64,000 bases of DNA from an uncultured Flavobacteriales bacterium. Its GTDB lineage: Bacteria; Bacteroidota; Bacteroidia; Flavobacteriales_G; Salibacteraceae. The stretch is taken from positions 1-64,000 of the forward strand of contig CALCCE010000306.1 of NCBI GenBank assembly GCA_937899835.1, in the 5' to 3' direction. The translations under genes and the position numbers were made by a program. Below are positions 3,914 through 13,133 of this stretch, piece by piece (position 1 is the stretch's first letter; each line of letters begins with the position of its first letter). The notes beneath the pieces are model-generated. The model made no database searches. It had not been told where the DNA came from and saw only the letters and a list, made by a program, of their open reading frames with translations.

Positions 3914-5029
3914 TCAGCTAAAAAGTGTCTGGTTGGTGCGCTGCAACCGCAAAGCCAGGGAGCGACTGATGTTGAGCAACAAACGGTTGGCCGCCGGACT
4001 GGGTTGCTCAATGAAGTGTTGCAGGTTACGTTGGTTGAGGCTCAGTACTTTGGCGCCTTCAGGTCCGGCAACTACATCCGCCGTACGGCGGCCGCCTACC
4101 AGAAAAACCATTTCGCCCAGCATTTCACCCTGGCCAATCTTAGCGATGGTGCGCTGGTGGACCCGTACTTCAAGGTTGCCTTCCAACGGCACAAAAACGG
4201 TTTGCGTTACCTGTCCTGCTTTGATAACCCGATCTCCGGGAAGGCATTGGATGACGTTGCCCAATGCAATAACTTGTTTGATCTCCTCCTCCGCTAATCC
4301 TTCGAAAAAAGAGATCCTTTCATTGGAGTGGGTTTCCAGATGCTCGGCCAGTTCGCTCCATTCGGCTGCTGAAGGGTGTTCGATCATAGCTACAGATTCG
4401 TGGCCCATCGCTTTGTAAATATCTGGTAGCAGTGCAGCGTTGTATTTTCCTTTAGCAAACAACTCACCCAAAGGAGACTGCACCTGGCGAAAGTGGGCAT
4501 CATCGCCCGTCACCATCACCAAAGGAACCATGATGCCAAACTCCGGATCGTTGAACACCTCGTGTGCATAGCTCTGAAATCCAAGGCGGTGGTATAGGTT
4601 GAGCAAATGCGGTTGGCAAGTACAGAAAGCCAATTCAACTCCTGCTTCGACCCATTGACGAGCGCCTTCGGCCATGAGCTTGAAGGGCAGGGAAGTGCTT
4701 CGGTATTCCGGTTTTACCACCAGCCGAATGGCGGCTGCCATTTTGCTCTCGGGCAACACCTGCACATAGCGGAGCAGGTCGTAGATGGCACGCAAACTTT
4801 CAGGAAAAGGGGCATCACAGCCCATCACCAGGCTCATGGCACCCACCATTTCAGCGCCATCGCGCACGTAGAGCAGGCGGTTGGTAGCATCCAGCGCATC
4901 GGTAAAAACACCGGCTTCATGGTTGGCCTGATCCACGTAGACCTCCATTTCCTGCACATAAATCTGGTAGCGCAAAGCCGTTATTTCTCTGACTTCCGCC
5001 TCCGTGTGTGCCTGATGAAAGGTGAACAT
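3914..5029 (-). CDS. GNAT-fold N-acyltransferase fused to a cyclic-nucleotide-binding domain
   Basis: The protein has 371 residues in two domains. Residues 1-170 have a GNAT/acyl-synthase fold: the start (LRYQIYVQEMEVY, 19-31, then an aspartate-rich turn) resembles LuxI/FeeM-type N-acyl amino acid synthases, followed by RLVVKPEYR (102-110) and the GNAT end motif NLYHRLGF (144-151). Residues 240-345 form a cyclic-nucleotide-binding domain whose phosphate-binding cassette is well kept: G305-E306-M307 and R315-T316-A317. cAMP or cGMP binding is therefore likely and probably gates acyl transfer. It is the last gene of the seven-gene operon, 4 bases after the adenylate cyclase gene, a natural source of the ligand. 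Substrate and acyl donor cannot be read from the sequence. Confidence 0.88.
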   Translation of the reverse strand: MFTFHQAHTEAEVREITALRYQIYVQEMEVYVDQANHEAGVFTDALDATNRLLYVRDGAEMVGAMSLVMGCDAPFPESLRAIYDLLRYVQVLPESKMAAAIRLVVKPEYRSTSLPFKLMAEGARQWVEAGVELAFCTCQPHLLNLYHRLGFQSYAHEVFNDPEFGIMVPLVMVTGDDAHFRQVQSPLGELFAKGKYNAALLPDIYKAMGHESVAMIEHPSAAEWSELAEHLETHSNERISFFEGLAEEEIKQVIALGNVIQCLPGDRVIKAGQVTQTVFVPLEGNLEVRVHQRTIAKIGQGEMLGEMVFLVGGRRTADVVAGPEGAKVLSLNQRNLQHFIEQPSPAANRLLLNISRSLALRLQRTNQTLFS

Positions 5030-5033
5030 CGCC

Positions 5034-6128
5034 TTAGTGCTTCCGGCTCAGAACCTCGAAAACATTGATGGGCTCGTCTTTGCCTTTCACCTTTACCGGC
5101 TCTCGCGGTGAAGTCTCCACCACCGTTTCTGATTGTTGCATCACGCTTTCGCTGATGAGGATGGAATTGGGCTTGTCTTTGGTGAGCGATTCGATGCGGG
5201 CCGCTACATTCACTACGTCACCGATCACCGTGTATTCTACTTTTTGCTCCGAACCGATGTTGCCCACCACCGCCTTGCCGGTATTGATGCCCACACCAAT
5301 GGCCACTTCGCGGCCAAATTTTTCTTCGTAGCGCTGGCTCACCTCGCGCACTTTTTCCAGCATTTCGAGGCCACACATTACCGCATTTTCACTGTTGTTT
5401 GGGTAGTTGATCGGAGCACCAAAAAGGGCCAAAATGCCATCGCCCATAAACTTGTTGATGGTGCCGTTGTATTTCAGAATGATGTCGTTCATCACCCCGA
5501 GGTAGTCGTTCAAAAACTCCACTACCTCGTGGGCTTCGAGCTTCGAACTGATGTTGGTAAAGTTGCGGATGTCGGTAAACATCACGGCTACCTCCCGGGT
5601 CTCGCCGTCCAGCAGCGATTTGCCGTCCTTGGCTTCCAGGCTTTCGCGCACCACTTCTTCGGGCACGTATTTTCGAAAGAGCAGCATGGTTTTTTCCAGG
5701 TCGCTCACCTTTTCGCTCAACTCACTCACCAGGCGCTTGTTGGCCTTTTGCAGCGAATACAGCTTGTGGGCGCGCAAAATGGTATCCCGCAGTTCGTCTT
5801 CGTCCCAAGGTTTGGTGATGTAGCGGTACACATTGGCCGAGTTGATGGCCTCGATCACCGCTTCCAGGTCGCTGAAGCCGGTGAGGATCATCCGTACCTG
5901 ATCGGGAAACTCGTTGTTGATCGATTGCAAAAACTCCACCCCGGTCGTTTCGGGCATCCGCTGATCGGTAATGATCAGGTGAACGTCTTTGTTGCGCAAA
6001 ATCTCAATGGCTTCGGCGGCACCTTCGGCCAGATGGATTTTGAACTCCCGGCGAAAGGCCGCCTTAAAAGTGCGCAAGTTGGCAGGTTCGTCGTCAACGT
6101 AGAGTATGACAGGCTTTTCTTGGTCCAT
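5034..6128 (-). CDS. Response regulator fused to class III adenylate cyclase
   Basis: This is a two-domain cytoplasmic protein of 364 residues. The receiver domain (1-120) carries D12/D13, phospho-acceptor D55 and K106 in TKPW. A coiled linker (about 121-160) leads to a class III nucleotide cyclase domain (about 175-362). All expected catalytic residues are visible: metal-binding D186 (FTDIRNF) and D230 (FMGDG), base-recognising K226, and the Asn/Arg pair in VNVAARIE. The Lys and the YTVIGD context point to ATP rather than GTP, so cAMP is the predicted product. It follows the broken hybrid kinase gene by 29 bases and precedes the cNBD-acyltransferase by 4, which suggests phosphorylation-controlled cAMP synthesis feeding that enzyme. 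Confidence 0.94.
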   Translation of the reverse strand: MDQEKPVILYVDDEPANLRTFKAAFRREFKIHLAEGAAEAIEILRNKDVHLIITDQRMPETTGVEFLQSINNEFPDQVRMILTGFSDLEAVIEAINSANVYRYITKPWDEDELRDTILRAHKLYSLQKANKRLVSELSEKVSDLEKTMLLFRKYVPEEVVRESLEAKDGKSLLDGETREVAVMFTDIRNFTNISSKLEAHEVVEFLNDYLGVMNDIILKYNGTINKFMGDGILALFGAPINYPNNSENAVMCGLEMLEKVREVSQRYEEKFGREVAIGVGINTGKAVVGNIGSEQKVEYTVIGDVVNVAARIESLTKDKPNSILISESVMQQSETVVETSPREPVKVKGKDEPINVFEVLSRKH

Positions 6129-6157: not shown

Positions 6158-8608
6158 TTAGGCCTCTTCCTTTTTCGGCTGCTTCTTGGGTAAAGTAATA
6201 ATGAATTCGGTACCCACCCCCAATTCACTCTCAAATTCGATGGTCCCGCTGTGGTCATTGATGACCCCAAAAGAGATCGACATGCCCAGGCCAGTGCCCT
6301 CGCCCACATCTTTGGTGGTGTAGAAGGGATCAAACAATTTCTTTTGCGTCTCCTCCGTCATTCCCGCTCCGGTATCTTTCAAACGCACCTCCACCATTTC
6401 ACCTTTGTCGATGGTCGTCAGCGTGATCGTGCCTTTGTCTGGTGTAGCCTGAATGGCATTGTTCAGGATGTTCATAAACACTTGGTTGAGTTTTCCGGCG
6501 TAGCACTCGATGGGTTCCAGGGGCGCGTAGTGGCGCACCACCTCGATGCGCTCCTTGTATTTGTTTTTCAGGATGCTCAGGGTAGAATCCAGGCCGTCTT
6601 CAATGCTGGCCTTTTTCAGGTTGGCCTCGTCGAGGCGGGAGAAGTTGCGCAAATCTTTCACAATCTCCGCCGTTCGGGTAGCACCGTTTTCAATGTCGTT
6701 GATCAAGCTGTCGATCTCGTCCAGCACAAAGTCGTAATCGAGGTCCTCTTTCAATTCTTCTACCTCCTCCAACAGTTCTTCCAGGTCGCTGTCCGGCTCT
6801 ATTTCGGCGTACTTTTCCAGGATTTCCTTCAGGTCGTCGAGGTCGCGCCTGAGGGGTTTCACGTTGCCGGAAATGAAATTGATCGGGTTGTTGATTTCGT
6901 GCGCAATGCCTGCGGTGAGCTGTCCCAAACCCGCCATTTTTTCTTGCGAAACCAGTTTGGCTTGCGTCTGTTGCAGGTTTTCAAACGTTTGTTGCAGTTC
7001 GTTCATGATTTTCGACTTGATGAAGGCCGATACCACGTGTTCTTTGAACGAAGCCATGAGGTCAAAATCTTGCGGGCCAAAAGCGTTGGCCTTGCTGAGG
7101 CATTCCAACACCAGGTAGCCGCGGGTTTGATCTTCTACCCGGATGATGAGAACAAGACTGGTTTTTGCGCCTCCAAAAGCCGGGTGTTGCTCAATGGCCG
7201 AGCTGTGATAGCCATCGGCTACATAATACAAGTCTTCGCCCACCTTGGCCGAACGCTGTAGGAGCAAGGCTTCGGCTTCCGCTTCGGTGAGCGATACTTC
7301 GGCCGCTTGTTGCTCCTCCCAACCGTGGTGAGAACGCACCACAAAACGCTGAGTAGCCTCATCCAGCACCAGCGAAGCCGCCCGTTCCACATCCCGAATA
7401 AAACGGATCTCTTCAATGATGTGCCCCATCACCGCGCTAAAGCTGATGCCGGTATTGATGGAAGCCACCATCTGGTTGATCTTCTCCAACTCCTTGTTTT
7501 TGATGTAGAGCGAATCGGATTGCGATTGAATTTCCTCCTTCTGCTCCTGAATTTCAGAAGTGCGTTCTTCCACCATCTTTTCCAGCGCCCGTTTTTCTTT
7601 TTCCAGGCGCTGCGAACGGATGCGCACCAAAATAAAGGTAGCTCCTAAAAAGGCCAGCCCATAAAGCAGGTAAGCCCACCATTGAGCATACCAAGGAGTA
7701 ACAATGGTGAAGCTGAACGAAGCAACCGGCCCCTCTTCGCCATAGCCGTTGATGGCCTTCACCCGAAAAGTATATTCGCCGTAGTCGAGGTTGGTGTATT
7801 CCTTTTCTGTTTCCCGCGAAGGCACCGACCACTCTGCATCGAAGCCTTCCAGTTGATATTGAAAACGCAGCGGCCGCACCCGGTCCAGGTCCAAGGCAGT
7901 GAATCGAAAACCGACCGAAGCGGTGTTGTGCGACAATCGTGGCGTAGTGCCGTCATAGGTAGAAGCGGAGATGTCGCCAGAGTCGCGAGCGGTGTTGTGC
8001 AAATGAACCAGAGAATCTCCGGGAAGGAGCAAGTTTCTCAGGGAGGTGGAAGGAGAGGCCGGCAAAACATCCATGGCCAAACTGCGGTAGTGCAGAAGCC
8101 CATCCGAGCCTCCAATCCAAAAAGTATTATTAGCATCTTTCGAAACACAACGCACCGAAAAATCTTCCCAGGCCAGCAAAGAGCGATTGCTGAAAACCTC
8201 AAGTTTTGGAGCATTGATCGGCGTTTGCGAAAGGTGATTTCCACGGCCATCGACCGAAAAATACCGGTCGGTGCCAAACGCCCAAACCCTGCCCAACCAA
8301 TCTTGGTAAGAAGAAGCTACAAAGCTTTGCTGATCCCTTACAAAGCCCGGTTGCTTGTAGCGATAGCACCCTTCACTGTTGAAGGCGAACACGTCACCTC
8401 CACTTTGCACCAGTTGGTTTTGCATCACTGATCCGCCAGTTTCCAGGGCTTGAAACCCCGAGGCATCCAATCGCCAGATGCCTGCGGCAGCCGTTTGGGC
8501 CAGCAAGTCACCCGAAGGCAACACCAACAGCTTTTCCAGTGCTTCTCCTTTGGCCGAATAGCTTTCTACCGCTTGCAAGTTCCCTGCGTTGCCCTCCAAT
8601 ACCATCAA
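6158..8608 (-). pseudogene. Propeller sensor histidine kinase, C-terminal part (Y_Y_Y, TM, HisKA, HATPase) after an in-frame stop
   Basis: This is the downstream 816 residues of a kinase gene split by a TAA at 8657-8659. The reading frame is the same before and after the stop, and the bases between the stop and the first possible start (TTG 8608, ATG 8605) translate into good propeller sequence (GNRWYTGSIDS). Domains: end of the propeller, Y_Y_Y (about 225-300), one transmembrane helix (about 306-328), coiled coil, a GAF-like region (about 385-530), HisKA with the acceptor in GIAHEINNP (about 569), and HATPase with ILNNAIQA, DTGAGM and GTGLGM. On its own this piece lacks the signal peptide. 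It is probably a broken gene, or a single base error in the sequence; all kinase motifs are intact. Its likely partner is the cyclase-type regulator 29 bases downstream. Confidence 0.82.
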
Positions 8609-8656: not shown

Positions 8657-9967
8657 TTAGGGGAAGGCCGACCGCAACTGGCGGAGCTGTGTGCCATCCC
8701 AAGAAAAAAGACCATCAGCAGAAGCCACGATCAAGGCATCTTCGGTGGCCATCAACTGGTAGCAAGCCAAATCCAGACCGGGCACCTGCTCAAAACGTTG
8801 CAAGACTGGCTTGTCGTTTTTGTCCAGGCTCGTGGGCAATGCCGCTTCGTTGAGCACATACAAGCCCCTCAACGTAGCTGTGTAAAGGCGGTTTTCGAAA
8901 CGCAATACATCATTTACCTGCCCCTCGATTCCATTGTTCTCCTGAAACTGTCGAATCGAAGCGCCCCATTGGATGCGGGCAATCCCTTCATTGAGCAAGG
9001 CCCAAACTCCTGTAAGGTTATCCCTGTAAAGGCCAACAACATTTTGATCTTGCAGGCCCGAGCCTTGGTTGCCCAGGTAGCTCAGCTGCTTGAGGTCGAA
9101 ACTCACCATGCCCAGGTAAGCGGTAGCCACCGCGAAATTTCCGGCAGTCAGTTCAATGGCATCGTTGACCAGTCCGGTGCGCAGCAAGTCGTTTGCAGGG
9201 TGGTCCAGAGCCACCAGTGCTTTTCCGTTGTATTGGAACAAACCATTGCGCAAGCTCACCACCAATTGCCCGTCTTCTTTGGTCGGTAGTATCGCTTTGA
9301 TCACCAGTTCACTTTGGCCCACGTCAGGCAAAGTGATGGGCAGGGCTTGTAGCTGTCCGTTGCGCAGTTGAAACAGCCCCCGGCCTTCGAGCTGCACCCA
9401 AAGTTGATCTTCTACTTGATATGCACCAATGATGGGAGCAGCTGCGCGTGTGACGTCTATTTTTTCGCTGTCCCACTTCAAGATTCGTTCACGGGCCACA
9501 AAGTAAACACCCTGCTCGTTGTCGCTTCCGCGGATGGAAAAAATATGGCGAACATCCCGAAAATCCCGATCCGCTTCCGGCACCAACGCATTGAGGGACC
9601 GAAAATCCAAAGCACCGGTTGGCAAGGTTTGCAAATGCCCGATCTCGTCACGTGCGCCTACATAAATTACTTCTCCGTCTGTATCCAACGAATAGACCAT
9701 CGATCCGTTGGAAGTAGGAATGGTACGCCATTGAGTGCCGTCGTATTCCAGTACCCCTGCGGCATTGGCTACGTAGAGGAAGCCCCGCTGATCTTGCACG
9801 GCGGCAAAGTTTTGAGGATGCGCTCCGTATTCGGCTGGCGAAAAATTCCGTACTGCAAAGCTTCCTCCCTGGCCTGCCACTACCGTGGGCATCAGGCAAA
9901 AGATCACCCCAAAAAGTCCCACCAAAACAAGGCGAAGCAAAGACAGAAAGTATGGCAACGGTGGCAT
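8657..9967 (-). pseudogene. Propeller sensor histidine kinase, N-terminal sensor part, ends at an in-frame TAA
   Basis: This is the upstream 436 codons of the same kinase gene. The start ATG at 9967 lies 7 bases after the stop of the transporter-like gene and gives a clean signal sequence (MPPLPYFLSLLRLVLVG, cleavage after VVAG). The rest is Reg_prop/propeller repeat sequence (LEYDGTQWRTIP, LFSWDGTQLRQL). It ends in ...LRSAFP followed by TAA; past the stop the same frame resumes with propeller sequence. As it stands the product would be a secreted half-propeller without any kinase domain. A longer reading from 10039 would run into the upstream gene and gives no signal peptide. Joined with the downstream piece the protein would be about 1270 residues, a normal size for this kinase type. 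Confidence 0.82.
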
Positions 9968-9974
9968 GATGGTC

Positions 9975-12900
9975 CTATTTATTGTCAATGTATGTAGCGA
10001 TGTGTTTGGCCAAAAACACATGGTTCGAAATGGCTTCAAACAAGGGCTCTTGCGGAATGCGCAACAAGCCGCTGGGTTGCTCGGCTTTCAGTTTCAAGGC
10101 GTTCCAGTCGGCCGCTCCGTAGTCCATTTCACTGATGAGTTCGTCTTCCTGAAATTTCTTCGCTTTTTTACCGCCTGTGGCTCCTGCTACCTCGCCTTTC
10201 ACCACTCGAAACATCTCTTTCGAAGTAGCATCTTTATGGATACTATCTGCTTCAGCTACCTCGAAATAATCGGCCAAATGGGCAATTTCTACCAGAAAAA
10301 CTTCTGGGAAACCGCTAAAAATGGCGAGGGTTTTCAAGTAATTCACTTTGGCTGAAATAGGATTTAACCCTTTGTTGACATGGCTTTCCAGGTAAGGAGC
10401 CCATTGGGCTGCCAGCACCTTTCTTTGCTCCTCGGGCAAGCGTTGGAGGTAGTGCTGCAGCTTGTCGGGCTGCATGGCTTGGAGGGCAATCACCACTTCT
10501 TGTTGCACCACAATGTTCGGGTGCTGGATGAACGCCACCACCACATCCGAAAGTTCGGTGAGTTGCAAGCGGCCAGCCGCCTGAATGGCGCAGGCCCGTG
10601 TCCACTGATTGATGGTGGAAAAATCCCGATTGATGATGTCTTTCAAACGGTGGGTAAGCGAAAGCTGCTCTTGTGGGAAACGGTGCCGCAGCACCCGCAG
10701 GCGTTCGGGAATGCTGTTGCTCTCCACCAAAGGGATCAAAATTTGCTTGATGGAATCTTCCACCAGCATGTCGATGATTTCTACCGCAAACACCCGTTCG
10801 TTGGGACTGCCCTCCAAAATGATGTCGCGAATCTTTTTCATGGCTTGCGAATCGTAGAGCAAAGACAGCAGGAGAAACACCCGTTCGGTTTTTTCTACCA
10901 ATTCATTTTTCAGTGCCTTGGAAAGGGCCTCGCATTCGGAGCCTTGGCCAATGTCGCGCACGGCAGCCATGGTCCAAATGAGGTTGGCAATGTCGTGTTC
11001 AATGGCTTGTTTTACCGAATTTACCTCGCTGCTCAACACCGAATACCCCATGTTGCTCAAAGAGAGCAAAATGTGGTGACGAATGCTGTCCACCGGATAA
11101 TGAATCCGATTCTTAAGTGCCCAGACGGCTTTTTTTCCACCGATGCGCCCAATGGTGCGAATGATTTTATACTGCGTTTCGCGGTTTTTCTCCCGCTGGG
11201 TAAACAGCCGTTCGAGTTCGGGCAAAATGGGTTCGCCAATTTCGAGCAAGGCCATGCAGGCCACGTTCGAATACCGGGGGTCGTCCAGGTTGTCTAACAA
11301 ATAAGGCCACAATTCCCGGTTGCGAATGCGGCCCGCTGAGAGCAGGGCATTGGTGCGCACGTTCGGGTCATCGTCTTGTAGCAGCAGACGCATGGCGTTG
11401 GAAACCTTCAGGCGGGGCAATTGCCCTAGCACCACCGCAGCTTCATGGCGAATTTCCGGATCGGAATCTTCGGCCATGGCTTGCAAACGCGGCCCGTTGT
11501 ACTGGCGCACTTCCAACAAATGATCGCGGGTTTCTTTGAGCAAAGCCGCTACACCCTCGTTGCTTTCGCTGTTCAGCTTATCGTCCACATCCAACAGCAT
11601 CGATACCAAACGGTGTACGCCAATGCGGGCCACCACCTCTTTGCGGATGCGGGCATTCGGGTGGTCGAGCAACTGACGGTAATAGGACTCCCGACCGATC
11701 GGTTCCAGTTTTTCCATCAGGTTGAGGGTGCTGATCGCCTTCCGGGAAACCGGACTAAAAATGAGTTCGCGAAAGAAATAACTGCCTGTTTTGAGGAAGG
11801 AATGCACCTTGTATTCCATGCCCGATTTGCCCATCAATACCTGGCGGATCATTTCGCGGTACTCCCGGTAAAGGGACACGGTGAGCCACACCCAAGACAC
11901 CACGATCAACAAAAAGATGAAGTTGAAATACACCAGGTTTTTCAAGCCAAACACCGTAAGCGCCAACAAGACCAGGCCGGCGGCAATGTTGCCAATGGCT
12001 TTAGGAATACCCTCGGTTTTATTTTGAAAATCGATGCGTTCTTCGGCCGGTAAGGGTTGGTAAAGAATCTGAAAGGCCGGGTCGTAGATCGAGCTGCGGA
12101 TGGACCGATCGGCCAACTTAGACAAGATGATGAAGGAGAAAAAGAGCATGCTCTCCCCATAAAACCCTCCCGATAGGGAAGCCAGCAAGGCACAAGCCAA
12201 TAACGCAACCGGCAGCGAAAGCAAGGCAGGTTTGAGCCCGTAGCGGTTGATGAAACGGCCAGAGACAAACACCTTCAACACCAGTTCGATGACGGCGACT
12301 GCTCCAAAGAAAATACTGAGAAAATTGCCCAGCACTTCAGGATCGGTAAACTTCACCTTGGTTTGGTCCAAAAACATGTAGTCGATGAACATGATGCCAA
12401 AAATGGGCAACAAGGCCAAGGCAAAAAGGTAGCGGAAGTAAGGTGTTTTGAGGTAGCTCCAAAACGATTTTTCCTCCTTCTCTTCTGGCTTTTGATACAC
12501 CGGAGCCACTTCCGGTGGCGCCAATTGTGTTTTGAACTTTCGCAGGATATAAAACAACGTGAGCAGGCAGGCCAGCATGGAACAACTGGCCAAAAACAAC
12601 AACTCGGTATAGCCCATGTAGCGCAACAGCAGAGGAATGGAGAAAAACCCGATGACATCAGAAAGCACTTCTCCGGTGCTGATCAATCCAAAAATGCGTT
12701 TGCCTTGCCGCAAGTCGAACAAGCGCCCGGCCACGCCCCAAAACACCACTACGCTGATGAAGGCCAGCACCCGGAACCAAATAAACATCGCAAAGGCCAT
12801 GGTGGGGGATGGGGCCAACCAGTTCCAAACACTAAAGGCCAAAATCGAAACCAATACAATGGCGAGCTTCACTTTGAGCTGGGTAAACAGCTTCAGCTTC

Positions 12901-13133
12901 AGGTCTAATTTTGATAACAACCAGTAGCCCAGGTAGCCCGCAACGCCTGCCAAGGTGTAGGCCAGTGGCAGCTGTTCTGAATCAAAGTGTTGCAGAAAAA
13001 TGGTAGTGGAAGTGATGTAGTACAACGCCAGTGCCCAACCAATGAAGTAAGACAAGGCGGTGAGCGTGAGAATCGGCAGGCCTTCCCCTTCCCGAACTTG
13101 AAGCACCGTAGCCAGCCAGTTGTTCCGTTTCAC
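9975..13133 (-). CDS. Npt1/Npt2-like nucleotide transporter domain with HEAT repeats and a degenerate cNMP-binding domain
   Basis: The protein has 1052 residues in three parts. Residues 1-430 hold about 10-12 membrane helices resembling the ATP/ADP translocase-like (Npt1/Npt2) branch of the major facilitator superfamily; the segment GRLFDLRQGKRIFGLIS is family-like. Residues about 440-850 are HEAT-type repeats (DPEIRHEAAVVLGQL, DPNVRTNALLSAGRI). The C-terminus (about 930-1045) has the fold pattern of a cyclic-nucleotide-binding domain, but the phosphate-binding arginine is missing (ISEMDYGAADWNALKL), so it may not bind cAMP. It overlaps the GNAT gene upstream by 4 bases. Substrate and direction of transport are unknown; a receptor or sensor role is also possible. 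Confidence 0.85.
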   Translation of the reverse strand: MKRNNWLATVLQVREGEGLPILTLTALSYFIGWALALYYITSTTIFLQHFDSEQLPLAYTLAGVAGYLGYWLLSKLDLKLKLFTQLKVKLAIVLVSILAFSVWNWLAPSPTMAFAMFIWFRVLAFISVVVFWGVAGRLFDLRQGKRIFGLISTGEVLSDVIGFFSIPLLLRYMGYTELLFLASCSMLACLLTLFYILRKFKTQLAPPEVAPVYQKPEEKEEKSFWSYLKTPYFRYLFALALLPIFGIMFIDYMFLDQTKVKFTDPEVLGNFLSIFFGAVAVIELVLKVFVSGRFINRYGLKPALLSLPVALLACALLASLSGGFYGESMLFFSFIILSKLADRSIRSSIYDPAFQILYQPLPAEERIDFQNKTEGIPKAIGNIAAGLVLLALTVFGLKNLVYFNFIFLLIVVSWVWLTVSLYREYREMIRQVLMGKSGMEYKVHSFLKTGSYFFRELIFSPVSRKAISTLNLMEKLEPIGRESYYRQLLDHPNARIRKEVVARIGVHRLVSMLLDVDDKLNSESNEGVAALLKETRDHLLEVRQYNGPRLQAMAEDSDPEIRHEAAVVLGQLPRLKVSNAMRLLLQDDDPNVRTNALLSAGRIRNRELWPYLLDNLDDPRYSNVACMALLEIGEPILPELERLFTQREKNRETQYKIIRTIGRIGGKKAVWALKNRIHYPVDSIRHHILLSLSNMGYSVLSSEVNSVKQAIEHDIANLIWTMAAVRDIGQGSECEALSKALKNELVEKTERVFLLLSLLYDSQAMKKIRDIILEGSPNERVFAVEIIDMLVEDSIKQILIPLVESNSIPERLRVLRHRFPQEQLSLTHRLKDIINRDFSTINQWTRACAIQAAGRLQLTELSDVVVAFIQHPNIVVQQEVVIALQAMQPDKLQHYLQRLPEEQRKVLAAQWAPYLESHVNKGLNPISAKVNYLKTLAIFSGFPEVFLVEIAHLADYFEVAEADSIHKDATSKEMFRVVKGEVAGATGGKKAKKFQEDELISEMDYGAADWNALKLKAEQPSGLLRIPQEPLFEAISNHVFLAKHIATYIDNK

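Follow-up and report, generated by a model that had tools for sequence, protein, structure and literature searches.

Is the gene at positions 3914–5029 (minus strand) of the 64,000-nucleotide stretch of uncultured Flavobacteriales DNA analysed here, referred to as the window, an acyltransferase controlled by cAMP? The region is a real open reading frame of 371 amino acids, and from the reading frame, Pfam and the predicted structure its product, P0001, consists of a FeeM/LuxI-like GNAT domain, a linker and a cyclic-nucleotide-binding domain (cNBD). On re-reading the sequence, the frame, strand, length and residue positions given in the first-pass annotation were all borne out, with LRYQIYVQEMEVY beginning at residue 19 and RLVVKPEYR at residue 102. 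Pfam recognized Acetyltransf_5 (5e-7, residues 19–115) and cNMP_binding (3.8e-11, residues 263–342), both above the curated cut-offs. An AlphaFold2 model was built from an 11-sequence alignment and reached a pLDDT of 81 and a pTM of 0.77. Along the gene, the GNAT N-acyltransferase domain occupies residues 1–175 (4505–5029), a helical linker seen in the predicted structure residues 176–237 (4319–4504, with lower confidence at residues 210–240) and the cNBD residues 238–345 (3995–4318). It ends with a predicted helix at residues 345–369 (3923–3997) which, judged from the ranges of the structural matches, is possibly equivalent to the C-helix of CRP and might be a dimer helix.

The first-pass annotation had assigned the N-terminal half to the FeeM/LuxI type, and both orthologue profiles and structure support this. 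P0001 itself gave no match to Pfam FeeM; the orthologues L098 (1.3e-13) and L070 (2.2e-15) match this family, as do L071 and L120, and two paralogues from the same genome match it at 1e-25 to 2e-26 and Autoind_synth in addition. A profile built from the GNAT halves had the autoinducer synthase 5w8a as its top PDB sequence match (3.8e-7). Comparison of the predicted structure with FeeM, LuxI and cNBD proteins, which had been proposed as a check, gave FeeM as the best match for the GNAT half and CRP for the other half. Residues 1–181 of the model matched FeeM 2g0b with Z 17.0 over 166 residues at 2.5 Å, followed by generic GNATs (14–15.5, about 1.5 Z under FeeM) and the AHL synthase TofI (14.3). 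As generic GNATs score that close behind, the fold alone favours FeeM only modestly and it is the orthologue profiles that carry the assignment. A match to TIGR03896 (bacteriocin transport-associated) was far below its cut-off and was rejected.

In the alignment, Ala99 of P0001 (codon 4733–4735) falls where FeeM (E95), Nas354 (E103) and LasI have their catalytic Glu, and A99/R102 stand where LuxI-type enzymes carry E-x-x-R (LasI E101/R104). Glu103 is essential in Nas354, where according to PMC4897644 the E103A exchange abolished activity. The residue is replaced in seven of eight distinct cNBD fusions, by Ala in P0001 and by Val, Val, Tyr, Ile, His and Ser elsewhere, and kept only in the L120 type (L120–L122), while of 22 correctly read proteins that lack a cNBD and belong or are related to the FeeM family, 19 possess it. 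The other three (L178, L180 and L100) rule out that every protein lacking a cNBD has the Glu. A Fisher test of Glu loss in fusions against non-fusions gave 0.0009, a value that includes the wrong-frame row L175, excluded from the 22, and that is only a guide as the sequences are related and not independent. An acyl site inactivated in all homologues, named beforehand as one finding that would speak against a cAMP-gated acyltransferase, was seen in part: the Glu is gone in P0001 and most fusions but kept in L120–L122.

From the sequence, Ala99 may reflect a changed chemistry, a base supplied from elsewhere or no catalysis. The last of these leads to the strongest rival explanation, a pseudoenzyme sensor whose FeeM-like domain would bind an acyl donor or acyl-amide ligand without acyl transfer, integrate it with cAMP and pass the output on through dimer or partner contacts. 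The uneven loss of Glu (seven of eight fusions against three of 22 proteins without a cNBD) and the inactive Nas354 variant both favour such a sensor, which we consider a possible but minority reading. Against it, R20, E27, R102, Y146 and the CxCQPHL/NDPEFGI motifs are common to P0001 and its close orthologues, and some GNATs function without a catalytic Glu base. A mycobacterial cAMP-GNAT with its Glu mutated is described as still active when cAMP is present (PMC8556138), so the loss is no proof of inactivity.

If P0001 does transfer acyl groups, its acceptor might also be a protein, with lysines or N-termini being acylated under cAMP control as by mycobacterial Pat. Fusions of cAMP-binding domains and GNATs with such a function exist (PMC8556138) and generic GNAT folds match the structure of P0001 closely, but its GNAT half is nearest to FeeM and autoinducer synthases by profile and by structure, and the NCBIfam Pat match is confined to the cNBD, which makes this reading unlikely. 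We regard as slightly more unlikely that P0001 performs the first step of an aminolipid pathway of the OlsB/GlsB type, in which an N-acyl amino acid would be O-acylated by a second enzyme into a membrane lipid. Weak matches to the NCBIfam OlsB models (3.8e-4) and the Acetyltransf_5 hit point in this direction, but the OlsB score is 20 against a cut-off of 350 bits, and no O-acyltransferase gene was recognized beside P0001 in the stretch read.

Homologues that share the GNAT-linker-cNBD order over their full length occur in other Bacteroidota lineages, which takes the architecture beyond chance. They include L033/L098 from a Rhodothermaceae MAG (36% identity), L070 from a related genome, L071, L099 and the near-identical trio L120–L122. 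No homologue was found in the 34 sampled genomes of the same family, and the gene is therefore sporadic. The genome itself carries two more FeeM-cNBD genes in tandem (L034:10696–11658 and 11798–12724), which follow a leucine-carboxyl-methyltransferase-like gene (all three together L034:9821–12724; G000 C251). A near-identical pair of methyltransferase and FeeM-cNBD genes is seen in L120, L121 and L122 from three different families, which could be due to recent transfer or to contamination. At L071:5346–9050 the GNAT-cNBD homologue has genes for a Ser/Thr kinase and a PP2C-like phosphatase as neighbours. Aminotransferases of class V or of the class I/II type are neighbours or fusion partners of FeeM-like GNATs (L037:5465–7125, L124:4602–6206, L101, L102 and L123:4179–5897), which suggests that one unit makes an amino acid and acylates it. 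A plasmid search mostly returned proteins that match in the cNBD alone, and a single GNAT that is part of an aminotransferase. The grouping of all cNBD fusions in a single clade received no support from the tree, which had long branches and three label changes and did not resolve.

The second half of P0001 had been read as a canonical cNBD with its phosphate cassette intact, and structure as well as a comparison within the genome agree with this. CRP-type proteins with cAMP are its best structural matches (Z 15–17), and the cassette G-E...R-[TS]-A is present as G305, E306, R315, T316 and A317. The complete element GEMVFLVGGRRTADVVA (residues 305–321; 4067–4117) agrees in length and key residues with the canonical motif tabulated by Kannan et al. 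2007 (PMC2246266), with the oddity of Val308 where that table has mostly small residues; from the sequence, T316 would also allow cGMP. Among 28 cNBD regions counted in the same genome, not including an assessment of the partial match C285, only four show the strict cassette, namely P0001, the paralogous pair of FeeM-cNBD proteins and a protein combining patatin with a cNBD, so that three of the four are FeeM-cNBD acyltransferases. The Crp-like protein L005 has a partial cassette and the remaining cNBDs, mostly of Crp/Fnr-like proteins, have lost theirs. As the genome also encodes nine class III cyclases, its recognizable cAMP effectors appear to be mostly acyltransferase fusions. The patatin-like phospholipase (L036:5615–7414) carries its cassette-bearing cNBD at the N-terminus. 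Elsewhere in the window, 9975–13133 encodes a transporter-like MFS protein with HEAT repeats, whose C-terminal region reads like a degenerate cNBD and gave no Pfam cNBD match.

A source of cAMP is suggested by the neighbouring gene (5034–6128, minus strand), which Pfam and alignment identify as a fusion of response-regulator receiver and class III cyclase and which ends four bases ahead of the P0001 start codon, as the first-pass annotation had stated. Alignment with CyaC 1wc0 and CyaB 3r5g showed the metal residues D186 and D230, the transition-state residues N307 and R311 and the purine pair K226/T300, which falls on that of CyaC, all to be present. Class IIIb cyclases with such K/T residues make cAMP, and from these residues the protein is predicted to be a class IIIb adenylyl cyclase. 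Its receiver keeps the acid pocket (D55, T83 and K106), and the likely partner providing its input is the histidine kinase encoded at 6158–8608 (minus strand), in which Pfam finds Y_Y_Y, a weak GAF, HisKA and HATPase. The reading frame at 8657–10039 (minus strand), which gave no Pfam match, is the N-terminal part of the kinase frame and probably its sensor part. A single in-frame TAA (8657–8659) divides the two parts and is either a real nonsense change or a sequencing error. None of the homologue loci (L033/L098, L070, L071, L099 and L120–L122) has a cyclase neighbour, and the cyclase-effector pair thus rests on one genome. Very unlikely is a cNBD that is a mere scaffold or binds another ligand beside an incidental cyclase: most cNBDs of the genome lack the cassette, the adjacency is seen in one genome only and Val308 is unusual, but the cassette Gly, Glu and Arg are kept in P0001 and its cNBD-containing homologues, and if about 5,500 genes are assumed from the size of the genome, the rough expectation that any of its four cassette cNBD genes immediately follows one of its nine cyclase genes is about 0.007.

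How does P0001 compare with known systems? The first-pass annotation expected a new kind of second-messenger-controlled product, a claim that is not supported, as direct activation by cAMP was reported in 2007 for the metagenomic N-acyl amino acid synthase NasP (Clardy & Brady 2007, J Bacteriol 189:6487, as given in PMC4897644) and cAMP-activated GNATs are known from mycobacteria (Pat; PMC8556138). With this precedent, control of acyl-amide synthesis by cAMP does not count as a novel type of regulation. NasP is described to acylate phenylalanine (PMC5643525). As an N-acyl amino acid synthase that cAMP controls directly, it resembles what is proposed for P0001, with NasP (ABB76600) being compared by description only, and differs in its source, an uncultured beta-proteobacterium. 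To our knowledge, no cyclase is known next to the NasP gene. With FeeM P0001 shares the GNAT fold, the N-terminal R/E motifs and the Pfam family of its orthologues, but it has Ala99 for the catalytic Glu and an additional linker and cNBD. Because of this missing Glu, we file P0001 as a variant with a NasP-like mode of action and do not take its membership of the FeeM family as proven. Nas343 and Nas354 show the same order of synthase domain, linker and nucleotide-second-messenger domain; theirs, however, is PilZ for c-di-GMP (PMC4897644), and Nas354 keeps its essential Glu103. Mycobacterial Pat/KATmt (Rv0998, MSMEG_5458) also combines a cAMP-binding domain and a GNAT in one chain and is activated by cAMP, but it acylates protein lysines, belongs to another GNAT subfamily and, as a Type III cAMP-GNAT, has the opposite order of cNBD and then GNAT. 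LuxI-type AHL synthases (5w8a, TofI) have a related GNAT fold and N-terminal motif but no cNBD, and P0001 lacks their ExxR glutamate. A literature search found no paper directly on a cNBD fused to an autoinducer or N-acyl amino acid synthase.

Domain architecture, cassette residues, active-site residues of the cyclase, gene order and predicted fold are direct observations, and the position of a cAMP-sensing protein just behind a cAMP-making gene suggests a cAMP-controlled acyl compound. A two-component signal would phosphorylate the receiver of the cyclase, presumably co-transcribed with P0001, and the cAMP formed would bind to the cNBD at the C-terminal end of P0001. Bound cAMP might then control the N-terminal FeeM/LuxI-type acyltransferase allosterically, either up or down, and an acyl group carried by ACP or CoA would be passed on to an amine, for which an amino acid or a similar small molecule is the likeliest candidate. 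That P0001 is a cAMP-regulated, small-molecule-type N-acyltransferase is for us an evenly balanced proposal. Counting against it are Ala99, the lack of a Pfam FeeM match for P0001 itself, the generic GNATs only about 1.5 Z below FeeM, the one-genome cyclase pair, Val308 and the in-frame stop in the upstream kinase. A bolder version, which we put forward only tentatively and as doubtful, is that FeeM-like acyltransferases and not transcription factors are the main cAMP effectors of this bacterium, with a dedicated operon of the two-component-driven cyclase and its acyltransferase, and with fusions that have lost the usual catalytic Glu and in which bound cAMP would complete the active site or stand in for it, or would make the domain a sensor of acyl ligands.

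In summary, three features of the locus are new: P0001 is directly paired with a two-component cyclase, its genome contains three fusions of this kind, and the Glu is replaced. As far as we found, cAMP control of acyl-amide synthesis has so far rested on one metagenomic enzyme, NasP. The cyclase-effector pair and the Bacteroidota fusions offer a system to ask for the role of cAMP where Crp/Fnr-like proteins mostly lack the cAMP cassette, and the same fusions would allow one to ask whether proteins that lost the catalytic Glu have changed their chemistry or have become sensors.
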